The notes beneath the pieces were generated by a model. It saw nothing but the letters and a program-made list of their open reading frames with translations, searched no databases and was not told the origin of the DNA. Position numbers and translations under genes: made by a program. This document shows, one piece after another, positions 24,165 through 31,068 of a stretch of 64,000 nt of DNA (position 1 is the first letter of the stretch; each line of letters opens with the position of its first letter). The stretch covers positions 186,001-250,000 of the forward strand of contig JANSYR010000006.1 of NCBI GenBank assembly GCA_024742285.1, written 5' to 3'. Source of the DNA: a bacterium (GTDB lineage: Bacteria; Myxococcota_A; UBA9160; UBA4427).

Positions 24165-25724
24165 CTACTCGGCCGCCGGTCCGGGGTATCGCTCCCGGAG
24201 CAGGCGCTTCAGGACCTTCCCGCTCGGGTTCCGCGGGATCTCGTCCACGAACTCGACCGCGACCGGCTGCTTGAAGCGCGCGAGCTTGCCCTGGCAGTAG
24301 TCGAGGACCGTCTGTGCCTGGAGGTTCTCGGCCCCCCGTACGACCACCGCGAGACCGGACTCGCCCCACTTGGCCGAAGGCATCCCGATCACCGCGACGT
24401 CGACCACGTTCTCCATCCCGAGGATCACGTTCTCGACCTCGGCGGGATAGACGTTCTCGCCCCCCGAGATGATCATGTCCTTCTTGCGGTCCTGGATGTA
24501 GATGCAGCCGTCCTCGTCGATCGTCGCGACGTCGCCGGAGCGGACCCAGCCATCGACGAGGGTCTCCGCCGTCGCATCGGGCCGGTTCCAGTACTCCTTC
24601 ATCATGTGCGGACCGGCGATCCAGACCTCCCCCGTCCCACCGGGCGGCACGTCGTTGCCCTCGTCGTCGACGATCCGGACCTCCGTGTGGACGAAGGGGC
24701 GGCCGGTCGAACCCATCTTCTGGACGGCGTCCTCGGGACTCGTGAGACACGCGGGACCGCAGGTCTCGGTCATCCCGTAGACCTGATGGATCGGGATCCC
24801 CATCGCGTCGTAGGCCTGGATCGTCGCGACCGGGACCGGGGCGGCGCCGCTCATGATCCAGCGCAGCGAGCTCCGATCGACGGTGTCCTTGTCGGGGACC
24901 TGGAGCATGAAGTTCAGCATCGCCGGAACGGCGAGCATGCACTGGACCTTCTCCTGCTCGATCAGCTTCCAGACGAGGGACGGGTCGAAGGCGCGCAGGA
25001 TGATGTTGGACATGCCGCGGTGGACGTTGCCCGTCATCGGCGTGAGGGCGCCGACGTGGAAGAGCGGCAGCGCGACGATGTAGCGATCGCCGAAGGCGAC
25101 CTCGGAGGTCGCCATCATCGTGATGCAGCCCCAGAGCGCCGTCGAATGCGTGTGAACCACGCCCTTGGGCAGCCCCGTCGTGCCCGACGTGTACATGATG
25201 TAGAGCTCGTCCTCGTCCTCGGCGACGATCGCCGGCTCCTCCGTCGATGCGGCGGCACACGTCGCGTCGTAGTCCTTCGCGAATTCCACCGTCTCGCCGC
25301 CGATCTGGAGGTAGCTCGCGATCGTCGTCGCGCCGTCGCCCTGCCCCGAGAGCTTCGGTCGCTGCTGCAGGTCCGCGACCGCCGACAGGAACTCCTCGCC
25401 GTACACGAGGGTCGAGACGCCCGAGTCGCTCAGGATGAACTCGAGCTCGTCGGGTACGAGCCGCCAGTTGAGCGGAACGCAGACCGCGCCGAGCTTCGCG
25501 ATCGCGAAGAAGGTCTCGAAGAACTCGACGCTGTTCATCGCGAGAAGCCCGACCCGGTCGCCCTTGCCGACGCCCAGCCCGGCGAGGGCATTCGCCGTAC
25601 GATTGCAGCGGTCGTTCGTCTCGCGGTAGCTGAAGCGTCGGCCCGAGGCGACGTCGAAGACGGCTTCGAGGTCCGGGTTCAGGCGCGCGCGCTTCGCGAG
25701 CAGCAGGCCGATGTTGTTGCGCAT
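24165..25724 (-). CDS. Acyl-CoA synthetase (AMP-binding)
   Basis: A 519-residue ANL-superfamily ligase that activates a carboxylic acid with ATP and CoA. Motifs in order: YTSGTTGLPKGV (P-loop), VYGMTETCGPACL, WVRSGDVATIDEDG, and the late catalytic Lys in PRNPSGKVLKR. ATG 25724 has GAGAGGAC upstream. The substrate could be a medium- or long-chain or cyclic acid. It is followed by the GST-like and sulfatase genes on the same strand, and faces the FAH-family gene across a 193-bp divergent promoter with an inverted repeat. Confidence 0.92.
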   Translation of the reverse strand: MRNNIGLLLAKRARLNPDLEAVFDVASGRRFSYRETNDRCNRTANALAGLGVGKGDRVGLLAMNSVEFFETFFAIAKLGAVCVPLNWRLVPDELEFILSDSGVSTLVYGEEFLSAVADLQQRPKLSGQGDGATTIASYLQIGGETVEFAKDYDATCAAASTEEPAIVAEDEDELYIMYTSGTTGLPKGVVHTHSTALWGCITMMATSEVAFGDRYIVALPLFHVGALTPMTGNVHRGMSNIILRAFDPSLVWKLIEQEKVQCMLAVPAMLNFMLQVPDKDTVDRSSLRWIMSGAAPVPVATIQAYDAMGIPIHQVYGMTETCGPACLTSPEDAVQKMGSTGRPFVHTEVRIVDDEGNDVPPGGTGEVWIAGPHMMKEYWNRPDATAETLVDGWVRSGDVATIDEDGCIYIQDRKKDMIISGGENVYPAEVENVILGMENVVDVAVIGMPSAKWGESGLAVVVRGAENLQAQTVLDYCQGKLARFKQPVAVEFVDEIPRNPSGKVLKRLLRERYPGPAAE

Positions 25725-25760
25725 CTCGGGTCCTCTCGGGTTCGAAGACACGAGGGTACG

Positions 25761-25780
25761 CGATCGTAGTCGGACGATCG
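25761..25780. promoter_or_regulatory. Operator-like inverted repeat between divergent ACS and FAH genes
   Basis: CGATCGT at 25761-25767 and ACGATCG at 25774-25780 are perfect 7-bp arms with a 6-base spacer. It lies 37 bases before the acyl-CoA synthetase start and 138 before the FAH gene, a usual place for a TetR- or GntR-type repressor. No regulator gene is adjacent. Confidence 0.4.
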
Positions 25781-25917
25781 AAACGAAGCCGGCGCCTGGC
25801 CCCTTCGGGGTCGAGGGGTCGGGATCTCCGCGTTCGCTCGACTGCGATCGAAACCGGCTAGCATCGCGCCGAACCCGGGCGCCGATCCTGCTCGACGCTC
25901 GATCGGAGGGAGAACCG

Positions 25918-26820
25918 ATGGGATTCCGACTCGCGAACATCGAGGGCCGCGCGGCCCTCGTCCTCGGTGACGACTACTACGACCTCGAGAAGGCTTCCGG
26001 CGGCAAGCTCGGCAGCGATCCGATGGGGGCGCTCGCCGCTTGCGACCAGCTCTCGGAGATCGCGGCGAGCCTCGCGGACCAGACGCCGACCGGCAAGCTC
26101 GCCGACGCGAAGCTCGGCCCGCCTTCCCCTCGCCCGGTCAACTCCTTCGGGATCGGCCTCAACTACCGCAATCACGCCGAGGAAGGCGGGATGGCGATCC
26201 CCGAGGCCCCGCTCGTCTTCGCGAAGTTCCCGTCCTGCATCGCAGGCCCGAACGACGACGTGGAGATGCGAAGCGACTACGTCGACTACGAGGGCGAGCT
26301 CGTCGCGGTCATCGGCAAGACCGCGAAGGACGTCGCCGTCGAGGATGCCTGGGACCACGTCGCGGGACTCTGCGTCGGCCAGGACATCTCGGACCGGCCG
26401 GCACAGTTCACCTCGGCCCCGCCCCAGTTCAACCTGGGCAAGTCCTTCGACACCTACGGACCGATCGGTCCCGTACTGGTCTCGCCGGACGAGCTCGCGA
26501 GCCGCGACGCCATGGAGCTCGTGTGTGAAGTGAACGGCGAAGTCCGACAGAAGGACAGCACCGGCGATCTGATCTTCGACGTTCCGACGCTCGTCGCCTA
26601 CCTGTCCGGGATCCTTACGCTGCTTCCCGGCGACGTGATCTTCACGGGCACGCCCGGCGGCGTCGGCGTGTTCCAGAACAAGCTGCTGAAGGACGGCGAC
26701 GTCGTCACCACGGCGATCGAAGGCCTCGGAACGATCACGAATCGCTGCGTGCGGACGAGCGATCACCCGCGCGCGGACTTCCTGCCCGAGCCGATGAAGC
26801 CGCTCCTCGCCGGCAAGTAG
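25918..26820 (+). CDS. Fumarylacetoacetate hydrolase (FAH) family protein
   Basis: A 300-residue member of the FAH/HHDD isomerase family, which cleaves C-C bonds or isomerises diketo acids with a divalent metal. The core is YRNHAEE, FAKFPSCIAGPND, the metal site YEGELVAVIGK (E-x-E type), GQDISDR and TGTPGGVGVF. An N-terminal extension of about 75 residues precedes the catalytic domain. GGAGGGAG stands before ATG 25918. Such enzymes finish aromatic catabolism. Its end is 21 bases from the convergent OsmC stop. Confidence 0.88.
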   Translation: MGFRLANIEGRAALVLGDDYYDLEKASGGKLGSDPMGALAACDQLSEIAASLADQTPTGKLADAKLGPPSPRPVNSFGIGLNYRNHAEEGGMAIPEAPLVFAKFPSCIAGPNDDVEMRSDYVDYEGELVAVIGKTAKDVAVEDAWDHVAGLCVGQDISDRPAQFTSAPPQFNLGKSFDTYGPIGPVLVSPDELASRDAMELVCEVNGEVRQKDSTGDLIFDVPTLVAYLSGILTLLPGDVIFTGTPGGVGVFQNKLLKDGDVVTTAIEGLGTITNRCVRTSDHPRADFLPEPMKPLLAGK

Positions 26821-26841: not shown

Positions 26842-27360
26842 TCAGTCCGCCGTCGCGAGCGTCGCCCCGTTCAGAGTCGCGGTCGCGGTCACGGTCCGCG
26901 GATTCCGGATCGCGTCCATCAGGAAGCACATCTTCTCGGCCTGGGCGACGACGGCGGCCACCACCGCCTCATCGGCGCTCGACTCGAGTTCGAGCTTCGT
27001 CTCCACATCGACCAGTCGACTGGTCGCGTTCCCTGCGCCGATCGAGCCGGTCTGCTCGAAGCGCGGGGTGACCACCAACGACAAGTGATCGAACTCGATC
27101 TTTTTCGCCTCGCTCACCCGAGCGAGCTGCGTGAGCAGTCAAAAAGCGATCGAAGACGCGAAGTAGGCGAGCGGCGGGGGAGCCGAGTCGTCGCCACCGA
27201 TCATGGCGCCCTCGTCACAGAGGATCTCGAACGCCCCGAACGTCGCCCGCTTCAACTGTTTCGGGCCGCGCACCGTCTCGACGTCGAACTCGATTCGGAC
27301 GCCCTTGCCCTCCGGGCCCTCGACCGGACTGATTCGGAACGGATTCGATTGCTCGCTCAT
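26842..27360 (-). CDS. Selenoprotein: OsmC/Ohr-family hydroperoxide reductase-like
   Basis: Read through an in-frame TGA (27141-27139 on the minus strand), this is a 172-residue OsmC-family protein, the normal family length. The N-terminal part ends ...PLAYFASSIAF, then Sec74, then LLTQLARV. Sec74 sits exactly where OsmC proteins have their first catalytic Cys. The second is Cys145 in AEKMCFLMDAIRNP. OsmC proteins reduce organic hydroperoxides with this pair. ATG 27360 has AGGAGG 4 bases upstream; the first internal start after the TGA (GTG 27117) would leave only the C-terminal half. Conservation of both halves and a SECIS-like hairpin support recoding over a nonsense mutation. It follows the MscS gene by 53 bases on the same strand. 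Confidence 0.9.
27109..27141 (-). promoter_or_regulatory. Candidate bacterial SECIS element with Sec-UGA (OsmC)
   Basis: Minus-strand UGA at 27141-27139 is followed by a perfect 7-bp stem, CUCGCUC (27126-27120) with GAGCGAG (27115-27109), closing the loop GGGU (27119-27116). The loop G is 20 nt past the UGA, well within the range for bacterial SECIS loops, and the loop is G-rich as SelB requires. Size and geometry match the hairpin in the other selenoprotein gene (7 bp, 4-nt loop). Confidence 0.8.
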
Positions 27361-27413
27361 ACTGCCTCCTGGGCCATGCCTGGCCGATGCCCGGACGTTA
27401 CCCCAGTCGGGCC

Positions 27414-28268
27414 CTAGGAGGCCCCGATCGGTCGGCCCGGCTCGTCTCCGTTGAAGACGATCACCTTGCGATGGGGGAACGGAATCTCGACGCCGGCGGC
27501 GTCGAGCGCCTTCTTGATCTGCTCCGGGAGCGAGTAGAGCAGCTCGAAGTAGTGGGTTCCCTCGCAGAAGGGCCGCACGAGGAAGTCGACGGAGCTGTCG
27601 TTCAGGGTCTCGATCTCGACGAAGGGCGAGGGATCCGAGAGGACGTGTGGATGCGCCGCGAGGACCCGGTCGATCGTCGCGCGGGCCGTGTCGATGTCCG
27701 AGTCGTACGAGATGCCGAAACGCATGTCGACACCGCGCACCGGGTGGTGGCTGTGATTCACGATCTTCTCGCCCCAGATGCTGCCATTGGGCACGATGAC
27801 ATGTTGATTGTCGAAGGTCTTGAGGTTCGTCGTGAAGAGATCGATCCCGTCGACGAGGCCGAAGAGCCCGGCCACCTCCGCGAAGTCCCCGACCTTGTAG
27901 GGCCGAAAGATCATCAGCATCACGCCCGCCGCCAGATTCGTCATGGCGCCCTGGAGCGCGAGGCCGATCGCGAGACCCGCGGCACCGAGGAGGGCCACGA
28001 TCGAGGTGGTCTCGACACCGAAACGATTGAGGACCGCGATGAAGGTGAAGGCGAGCACGGCATAGCGGGCGATGCTGCCGAGGAAGGTGAAGAGCGTGCT
28101 GTCGAGCTGGTCGTGGCGTTCGCCCAGCCCGACGATCAGACGGCCGATCCGGCCGGCGATCCAGTAGCCGATGATCAGAATGACGATCGCGAGCAGCACG
28201 TTCGTCGCCCACTCGAGGGCGGTCGGCAGATACTCGTTGATGTCGAGGGTTTCGATCAGTTCTTCCAC
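27414..28268 (-). CDS. mscS: Small-conductance mechanosensitive channel (MscS)
   Basis: A 284-residue MscS homologue (E. coli MscS has 286), releasing solutes on hypo-osmotic shock. Three membrane helices precede the pore helix GAAGLAIGLALQGAMTNLAAG, with the Gly/Ala packing pattern; then comes the cytoplasmic cage with PYKVGDFAEVAG and IVPNGSIWGEKIVNHSHHP. GTG 28268 is chosen because GGAG lies 6 bases upstream and the length fits; GTG 28280 and 28304 are in frame but lack good sites. The 148-bp gap upstream holds no gene. Confidence 0.92.
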   Translation of the reverse strand: MEELIETLDINEYLPTALEWATNVLLAIVILIIGYWIAGRIGRLIVGLGERHDQLDSTLFTFLGSIARYAVLAFTFIAVLNRFGVETTSIVALLGAAGLAIGLALQGAMTNLAAGVMLMIFRPYKVGDFAEVAGLFGLVDGIDLFTTNLKTFDNQHVIVPNGSIWGEKIVNHSHHPVRGVDMRFGISYDSDIDTARATIDRVLAAHPHVLSDPSPFVEIETLNDSSVDFLVRPFCEGTHYFELLYSLPEQIKKALDAAGVEIPFPHRKVIVFNGDEPGRPIGAS

Positions 28269-28416
28269 GTTCGTCTCCACGTCGTTTCGAGGCTCGTCCG
28301 TCACAATGCGGAGTGAACCGAATCCGTCACGCCCGAGAAAGGGTCGGAGGCCACGGCGAGTCCGACCCGATCGGACCGCTGGGCGAGGACCCGATGCTGC
28401 GGGTGATCTGGAACGA

Positions 28417-29025
28417 CTAGTCCGCGGGCGCCACCCCCTGGAGCGAGACCAGCGCCACACCGATCATGGACTCGCGCGTCACGATCGCGGCGAGCTCGTC
28501 CTCGCTCCAGCCCTCGGTGCCGTCCGGGCGGAGCGGCAGGACGAGGAAGCGTGTCTCGGCGGTGGTGTCGGTGATCCGTACGCGGACGTCTTCCGCCAGC
28601 TCGACCCCCATCTCGCGCAGGACGCCGCGCGGGGCGCGCACGATCCGCGCTCGGTAGGCCGGCGCCTTGTACCAGTCGGGCGGAAGACCGAGGACCGGCC
28701 AGGCGGTGCAGGAGCACTGGGTGCAGACGACGGCGTTGTGGAGCGTCGGGGTGTTCTCCAGCACGACGATGTACTCGCCCTGCGGCCCCTCGAAGCCGAG
28801 CTCGGCGCAGGCCTTCGTGCCGTCGACCAGGAGTCGTGCCCGATAGTCGGGATCGCTCCACGCCTTCGCCACGACCCGGGCGCCGTTCCTCCAGTCGAAC
28901 TCCTGCCCGGCGTTCTCGGCCAGGCGGTCGATCGCCCCGTCCGGGAGACGGTCCGCGTCCGCGAGGGCCCGCTCGAGAGCCTCGACCCGCTCGACGGGCG
29001 TGGCCACGCGATCCCGATCGCTCAT
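28417..29025 (-). CDS. nthA: Nitrile hydratase alpha subunit
   Basis: A 202-residue alpha subunit that holds the metal center converting nitriles to amides. The metal-binding claw is CTQCSC with Cys101, Cys104, Ser105 and Cys106; the usual sequence is CTLCSC for cobalt and CSLCSC for iron. Thr at position 2 suggests the cobalt type, and Gln at position 3 is unusual. ATG 29025 overlaps the beta stop (ATGA). No P14K/activator gene or amidase lies next to it. Confidence 0.92.
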   Translation of the reverse strand: MSDRDRVATPVERVEALERALADADRLPDGAIDRLAENAGQEFDWRNGARVVAKAWSDPDYRARLLVDGTKACAELGFEGPQGEYIVVLENTPTLHNAVVCTQCSCTAWPVLGLPPDWYKAPAYRARIVRAPRGVLREMGVELAEDVRVRITDTTAETRFLVLPLRPDGTEGWSEDELAAIVTRESMIGVALVSLQGVAPAD

Positions 29026-29654
29026 TCGACCGGCTCCAGGTAGCTCTGCCAGAGATCGACCAGGACGGACTCGCCCGCGCAGTCGTCCTCCCTCCAGAGC
29101 TCGCGCGCTTCGAACTCCACGTGGTAGGTGGGCTCGCTTCGTGGGGTGAACCCGTGGGCCGAGGTGTCCGGAAAGGAGAACGCGGGAGCCACGCGAATCA
29201 CCTCGCCGGTCTTCCCCCGCACGTAGCGCGGGACCCGAGTGTGCCCTCGGAACTGGGCCTCGCGTACGCGCACTCGGTCGCCGACCGCGAAGGTTGCGGT
29301 CGCGGGCTCCGCGACCTCCCGTGGCGTCACGTCGGCGACGGGCCGCGCGAGCGGAAACCGCGCGCCGGCGAGAGATTCGAGACTCGCGCGATCGACGACG
29401 CCCTTCTCGACCAGCAGCGTCGCGGCGCCGGTCAGCATCCGCTCGTAGTACGAGGCGCCGAGATAGTCCGCCGGCGCCATCCGTTCGACGGCGTGGCGGT
29501 ATTCATCCGCGTTGTAGGCCCGAAGGATCCCGATCCCGGCCATGTTCAGCGCGAAGGCGCGCCCCTCCCAACGCTCGTGGAACGTCGGCTCGTCGGCCTC
29601 GATCTCGATCGCGCCGAAGCCCTCCATGCCCCCGAGATCGTGGATCCCGTTCAT
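29022..29654 (-). CDS. nthB: Nitrile hydratase beta subunit
   Basis: A 210-residue beta subunit starting MNGIHDLGGMEGFG, the diagnostic opening of the family. The C-terminal SH3-like domain has FAVGDRVRV, HTRVPRYVRGKTGEV and the end WQSYLEPVE. It forms the alpha-beta dimer with the following gene; the beta-alpha order is common in cobalt-type enzymes. It begins 13 bases after the amidohydrolase stop, so the amidohydrolase, beta and alpha genes are probably one transcript. The ribosome site is weak (GGGGGC). Confidence 0.93.
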   Translation of the reverse strand: MNGIHDLGGMEGFGAIEIEADEPTFHERWEGRAFALNMAGIGILRAYNADEYRHAVERMAPADYLGASYYERMLTGAATLLVEKGVVDRASLESLAGARFPLARPVADVTPREVAEPATATFAVGDRVRVREAQFRGHTRVPRYVRGKTGEVIRVAPAFSFPDTSAHGFTPRSEPTYHVEFEARELWREDDCAGESVLVDLWQSYLEPVE

Positions 29655-29667
29655 CGTGCCCCCGGCG

Positions 29668-31068
29668 CTAGTCGTTCTTCGGGGCGCCGTCTGCGGCGTC
29701 GTGCGCGGCGTTGTCGGCGGCGTTGTCGACGGCGTCGTCCGGGGCGTTGTCCGGGGCGTTGTCCCACGCGACGCTGTAGGCACTCGACAGTTGCTGGACG
29801 ACATCCCCGATCGTGACGTAGCCCTTCGCGTAGTCGGAAGGCGGCTTGCCTCCGCCTCCGGCGATCGGCGCCAGGTCGACGTGCTTCGCCTTCTCGCGGA
29901 GCGCGCCCACCGTGCACTCCTCCCGCGGCATGACCGCGAAGGGGTCGTACTGGAAATGCTTCATCGCGTTCAGGTGGGTGATCTTGTCGACCTCTTCCTT
30001 CGGTACGTCCTTCATCGAGCGCCAGAGCTTCTCCGGCGAGAGCGGCCAGGTCGTATCCGAATGGGGGTAGTCGCACTCCCAGGTGAGCGTGTCGATTCCG
30101 ATCAGGTCGCGATTGCGGACGCCCGCGTCGTCGTCGATGAAGCAGGTGACGCAGTGCTCCTTGAACACGTCGCTGGGCCGCTTTCCGCCGAAGTCCTGGT
30201 GGGTCCACTTGTGATGGTGCTCGTAGACGTAGTCGGCCCGCTCCAGGAAGTACGGGATCCAGCCGACGCCGCCTTCGGACATCGCGAACTTGAGATCCGG
30301 GTATCGCCGGAGCACGTCCGAGAAAGTGAGTTCCGTGGCGACCCCGAAGAGCGTGATCGGCGTGCCCGTGATCATGATCTCGATCGGGGCGTCCATCTCG
30401 TTGAGCGACATCCCCGTTCCGGAGCCGATATGCATGCAGATCACGGTCCCCTCGTCGGCGCAGGCCTTCCAGAAGGGTTCCCAGTGGTCGTCGAAGAGCG
30501 ACGGATGGCCCAGGCCCGTCGGCGTATCGGCGAAGGAGATCGCGTGACACCCCTTCTTCGCCACGCGCCGTACCTCGTCGGCCAATCGTTTCGGATCCCA
30601 CATCATGGGGATCGCGAGGGGAATGAAACGACCGGGATGTGCGCCGCACCAGGCGTCGATGTGCCAATCGTTGTAGGCCTGGATCATGACCCGGGCCAGC
30701 TCCTTGTCGTCGTTGCGACCGAAGAGCTCACCGCAGAAACCGGGTACGGACGGGAAACAGAGCGAGCCGAGCACGCCGTTCACGTTCATGTCGTCGATCC
30801 GGGCGTCGACGTCGTAGCAACCCTTCCGGAGCTGGGAGAGCGCGGTCGGCTCCATCCCGTACTCCTCCGGCGGTCGCCCCGCGACCGCGTTCAGGCCGAC
30901 GTTCGGGATCTGCTGTCCCTCGAAGACCCAGGCGTTCGTGCCGTCGTTGCGCGTGACCAGCTTCGGCGCCCTCGCCTTCCACTCGGGCGTGAGGACTCCG
31001 TCCCACATGTCCGGCGGCTCACAGACGTGATCGTCCACGCTCACGAGGATCATGTCGTTCATTTCCAT
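29668..31068 (-). CDS. Amidohydrolase-2 family protein with repetitive acidic tail
   Basis: A 466-residue paralogue of the 1545-2822 protein (SVDDH near the start, HIGSGTGMS, CDYPHSDTTWP). It extends past the shared core with a low-complexity tail of DNAx/DDAx tetrapeptides at about 436-455, encoded by a 12-bp tandem repeat. Start ATG 31068 is chosen because GGAGGAG is 5-6 bases upstream. It sits directly before nthB and nthA and after a P450, so it may handle a product or substrate of the same pathway, but hydrolysis of the amide from nitrile hydratase is only a guess. Confidence 0.87.
   Translation of the reverse strand: MEMNDMILVSVDDHVCEPPDMWDGVLTPEWKARAPKLVTRNDGTNAWVFEGQQIPNVGLNAVAGRPPEEYGMEPTALSQLRKGCYDVDARIDDMNVNGVLGSLCFPSVPGFCGELFGRNDDKELARVMIQAYNDWHIDAWCGAHPGRFIPLAIPMMWDPKRLADEVRRVAKKGCHAISFADTPTGLGHPSLFDDHWEPFWKACADEGTVICMHIGSGTGMSLNEMDAPIEIMITGTPITLFGVATELTFSDVLRRYPDLKFAMSEGGVGWIPYFLERADYVYEHHHKWTHQDFGGKRPSDVFKEHCVTCFIDDDAGVRNRDLIGIDTLTWECDYPHSDTTWPLSPEKLWRSMKDVPKEEVDKITHLNAMKHFQYDPFAVMPREECTVGALREKAKHVDLAPIAGGGGKPPSDYAKGYVTIGDVVQQLSSAYSVAWDNAPDNAPDDAVDNAADNAAHDAADGAPKND
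29704..29763 (-). repeat. 12-bp coding tandem repeat (five units)
   Basis: Units of the form GGCGTTGTC plus three variable bases recur with exact 12-base period, ending at 29715, 29727, 29739, 29751 and 29763. They encode DNA(P/A)-like tetrapeptides at the C-terminus of the amidohydrolase. In-frame length change by slippage would add or remove four residues at a time. Confidence 0.8.

Follow-up and report, generated by a model that had tools for sequence, protein, structure and literature searches.

An OsmC-like gene with a conserved in-frame UGA, a probable selenocysteine codon, in a Myxococcota_A bacterium

The window analysed here, a stretch of 64,000 nucleotides from a bacterium of the lineage Myxococcota_A, UBA9160, UBA4427 (contig JANSYR010000006.1), carries an OsmC-like gene (26842 to 27360, minus strand) in which an in-frame UGA at codon 74 is very probably decoded as selenocysteine (Sec) via SelB and a downstream hairpin, so that the product is a selenocysteine-containing OsmC-like protein of the NCBIfam family NF041052. 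The in-frame UGA is real, its reading as Sec is well supported, and the gene is a new sequence of a known family. It is not novel, because the family has been published since 2005 and has a profile model of its own; in this respect the earlier note on this DNA, which implied novelty, is corrected. The gene is a clean case of a selenoprotein gene that a standard ORF caller would cut short at its UGA. With it, a genus in which SelA was found in all nine of the sampled genomes gains an OsmC selenoprotein.

Reading frame and product of the OsmC-like gene

With the TGA read as Sec, the frame from 27360 to 26842 (minus strand) encodes 172 residues and contains TGA at codon 74 (27139 to 27141, minus strand) and at the terminal stop (26844 to 26842) only. 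The start codon is ATG and is preceded, at a distance of 4 nt, by the AGGAGG ribosome-binding site (27365 to 27370, minus strand) that the earlier note had described as strong. AGGAGG is also present directly before the ATG in the homologous loci L053 and L054. The previous reading of two OsmC halves in one frame, separated only by a TGA at the place of the reactive Cys, was borne out by profile searches of the translation. The Pfam domain OsmC (PF02566) spans the UGA (residues 56–158, 51.7 bits, 1.3e-13), and NF041052 (OsmC_like_Se, “OsmC-related (seleno)protein”) was matched over the whole model at residues 23–165 with 147 bits (cut-off 95, 3.6e-43). A search of the genome independently flagged “1 TGA” inside the match. 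Sec74 is part of the sequence IAF-U-LLT, of which ULLT (residues 74–77) represents a UxxT motif, and the presumed resolving cysteine, Cys145, is encoded by TGC at 26926 to 26928 (minus strand).

The convergent neighbour downstream (25711 to 26820) also adjoins the OsmC-like gene in L053 and L054. The DNA flanking L055 to L057 yielded no counterpart, so that the context gives no functional clue. Upstream on the same strand (27414 to 29804, minus strand), genes encoding the beta and alpha subunits of a nitrile hydratase are followed by a gene for an MscS-type mechanosensitive channel, the latter (28460 to 27414, minus strand) located just upstream of the OsmC-like gene.

Recurrence of the UGA in homologues

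Counting the present gene, 21 distinct loci have the UGA at this codon. The other 20, mostly from genomes that were assembled independently, belong to the same genus, to another proteobacterial genome and to Chloroflexota. Among them are homologues with 83, 75 and 56% identity as well as homologues with approximately 38% identity from Chloroflexota (SAR202, Dehalococcoidia). A cysteine is present at the Cys145 column in all 21 loci, in agreement with the earlier statement that this second Cys is kept. In more distant OsmC proteins (L077, L088, L083 and others) TGC or TGT is found at the Sec74 column, so that Sec is paired with Cys at this position. Two loci from the class of genome G380, L072 and L091, make up a diverged subgroup: UTLS replaces UxxT in them, but the UGA column and the Cys at the Cys145 column are kept.

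A search of the order with NF041052 gave TGA-interrupted genes above the cut-off in three genomes, all of the same genus, and a search of the class of G380, the genome that harbors L056, gave such genes in 15 genomes. No member above the family cut-off was found in six of the nine genomes of the genus, and the OsmC selenoprotein gene might thus be dispensable, or the assemblies incomplete. A tblastn search against plasmids retrieved only distant OsmC proteins. Of the 20 NF041052 loci above the cut-off found in this analysis, 19 have TGA at the reactive site of OsmC, and Sec seems to be the normal state in this clade.

Two explanations that do without Sec have to be weighed here. The TGA is one base away from TGC, and since Cys-containing OsmC relatives such as L077 exist, it could be taken for a sequencing or assembly error, a doubt that the earlier note had itself raised. 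The 20 further loci with TGA at the same codon dispel this doubt: two other species of the genus, L055 and many Chloroflexota genomes share this TGA, in almost every case with the hairpin after it, and the probability of an error is vanishingly small. That the gene is a pseudogene, or that it makes two separate polypeptides divided at the UGA, is very improbable as well. The list of open reading frames does hold a GTG-started downstream ORF (27117 to 26842, minus strand), but the OsmC domain extends over the sequence before and after the UGA, and Cys145 belongs to the part after it. Among three congeners, dN/dS amounts to 0.11–0.24 upstream and 0.19–0.32 downstream of the UGA, low values that indicate a synonymous bias on both sides. 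The UGA is moreover kept across phyla, together with a covarying SECIS element at fixed spacing and in the presence of the Sec machinery. Since the UGA recurs, Cys145 is kept and codons are constrained on both sides, an error and a pseudogene can be excluded for practical purposes, and a split gene is effectively excluded along with them.

SECIS hairpin and selenocysteine machinery

The hairpin (27109 to 27126, minus strand) consists of a 7-bp stem, CUCGCUC/GAGCGAG, and the loop GGGU. It starts 13 nt past the UGA, and the loop starts at the 20th nucleotide (19 nt between UGA and loop), exactly as the earlier note had described it. The bacterial SECIS model allows for loops of 3–9 nt, stems of 4–16 bp, a G in the first two loop positions, a distance to the UGA of 16–37 nt and a minimum free energy of ≤ −7.5 kcal/mol (PMC13188914); the values determined here are a 4-nt loop (GGGU), 7 bp, 19 nt and −10.7 kcal/mol, all within these limits. 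A 42-nt segment folds with −16.6 kcal/mol (z = −2.37). Given that control stretches fold as well, this z-score was set aside. In GC-rich DNA such as this, a hairpin by itself says little, since one was also obtained from a control stretch of the OsmC-like gene; covariation is therefore the decisive test.

Among the homologues the position of the hairpin is fixed, and its sequence shifts by compensatory substitutions. In the register with a 4-nt loop (10 sequences), 95.7% of the cells are paired, six of the seven stem pairs show double changes and the covariation score was reached by none of 500 shuffles; in the register with a 3-nt loop (six sequences), 95.2% are paired and the covariation score is 0.657 compared to 0.233 after shuffling, the two registers having been assigned after the folds were seen, which brings some bias toward structure into these values. 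Slid controls were only 30–52% paired. GG at positions 23–24, counted from the U of the UGA, is invariant in both sets. A scan with Rfam over the region of the OsmC-like gene gave no match. As judged from the aligned homologues, the fixed position and the covariation constitute the strong evidence for a SECIS element.

The selenocysteine system of the genome is complete. It comprises a tRNA-Sec (67.8 bits, gathering threshold 47) with the anticodon tca (UCA), SelA (522.9 bits), SelB with its specific C-terminal winged-helix domains and SelD (259 bits), so that a lack of the Sec machinery, the other objection foreseen in the earlier note, does not apply. The SelD domain forms part of a 760-aa fusion protein (L020:256-2538) whose N-terminal portion is a pyridine-nucleotide-disulphide oxidoreductase. 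Each of the other eight genomes sampled from the genus likewise gave a SelA match above the cut-off. Five paralogous genes of the UGSC family (L092 to L096, on contigs C1 and C3) have an in-frame TGA precisely where the motif UGSC has its U, showing that the selenoproteome is broader than the OsmC-like protein; their number in one genome suggests an expansion of the UGSC selenoprotein family. No in-frame TGA was present inside the matched domain of the molybdopterin-family oxidoreductases of the genome, and a Sec-containing formate dehydrogenase was thus not detected, although its Sec site can fall outside the domain. A second OsmC-family gene of this genome (L001:1399-1806) encodes an ordinary Cys (ASCMLTTM).

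Readthrough of UGA occurs in bacteria, and UGA74 could accordingly be read as another residue, either by near-cognate suppression or in a reassigned code. This is highly unlikely, as the OsmC-like gene itself terminates in UGA, the genome encodes a dedicated tRNA-Sec together with SelA, SelB and SelD, and homologues, PDB 3cje among them, have Cys in the column of Sec74. The proposal of the earlier note that this OsmC protein is a selenoprotein is supported by the recurring UGA, the covarying SECIS element and the Sec machinery.

Putative function and relation to known systems

In the mechanism proposed for decoding of UGA74 as Sec, ribosomes would arrive at this codon, SelB carrying the Sec-tRNA would bind the hairpin just past it and Sec would be inserted, whereupon translation would continue as far as the terminal UGA. 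Sec74 is predicted to be the nucleophile of an OsmC-fold dimer, placed on the central OsmC helix instead of the reactive Cys, and Cys145 would most likely resolve the oxidised selenium as a selenenylsulfide. Such a cycle, deduced from the conserved UGA and the paired Cys, may serve a thiol-dependent peroxidase or a related redox activity.

The higher reactivity with organic hydroperoxides that the earlier note had expected from Sec becomes less likely because the protein lacks the catalytic Glu of Ohr. The triad of XfOhr consists of Arg19, Glu51 and Cys61, with Glu51 ten residues before Cys61 (PMC5962072); in the present protein Leu64 is found ten residues before Sec74, so that, judged at the Glu position, the Arg-Glu-Cys triad is missing and peroxidase activity is uncertain. 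It is quite possible, at somewhat less than even chances, that the selenoprotein is mainly not an organic-hydroperoxide reductase but, for instance, a redox protein of the YhfA kind that works on thiols or persulfides. Leu64 fits this option, as does the classification of the Sec family under COG1765 YhfA (PMC9312934), the activity of the YhfA type being termed unknown in the literature (PMC5962072); the layout of the Sec74/Cys145 pair, which corresponds to the peroxidatic and resolving Cys of Ohr/OsmC, speaks against it. The option concerns the substrate only and is compatible with decoding of UGA74 as Sec. By its sequence, the protein seems to sit with the biochemically undefined OsmC/YhfA-like proteins. 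Because the Sec form seems to be the rule in the NF041052 clade, this clade might even catalyse a selenium-dependent reaction unlike the peroxide reduction of Ohr/OsmC, with the Cys forms as rare derivatives, which is conceivable but rather unlikely.

With the Cys peroxidases of the Ohr/OsmC type (XfOhr, PDB 1zb8) the protein shares the OsmC domain, the reactive residue on the central helix and a second Cys in the C-terminal half; it differs in having Sec for Cys and Leu64 at the position of Glu51, and no match to the Ohr or OsmC models of NCBIfam was obtained. The OsmC-like protein of PDB 3cje has the same core (GGDxSAPPPLA...C-xMT) and a Cys in the C-terminal half, and shows the arrangement in its Cys version, with CVMT where the present protein reads ULLT. 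Sec at the reactive site of OsmC is shared with NF041052, from which nothing essential differs. OsmC-like selenoproteins with UxxT were first reported as three Sargasso Sea sequences (Zhang et al. 2005, PMC1088965) and appear in later reviews (PMC9312934). The exchange of the OsmC Cys for Sec, the UxxT motif and a SECIS element just past the UGA are common to these sequences and the gene described here; the former, however, are metagenome reads, whereas the latter is part of a genome that itself encodes the entire Sec machinery.
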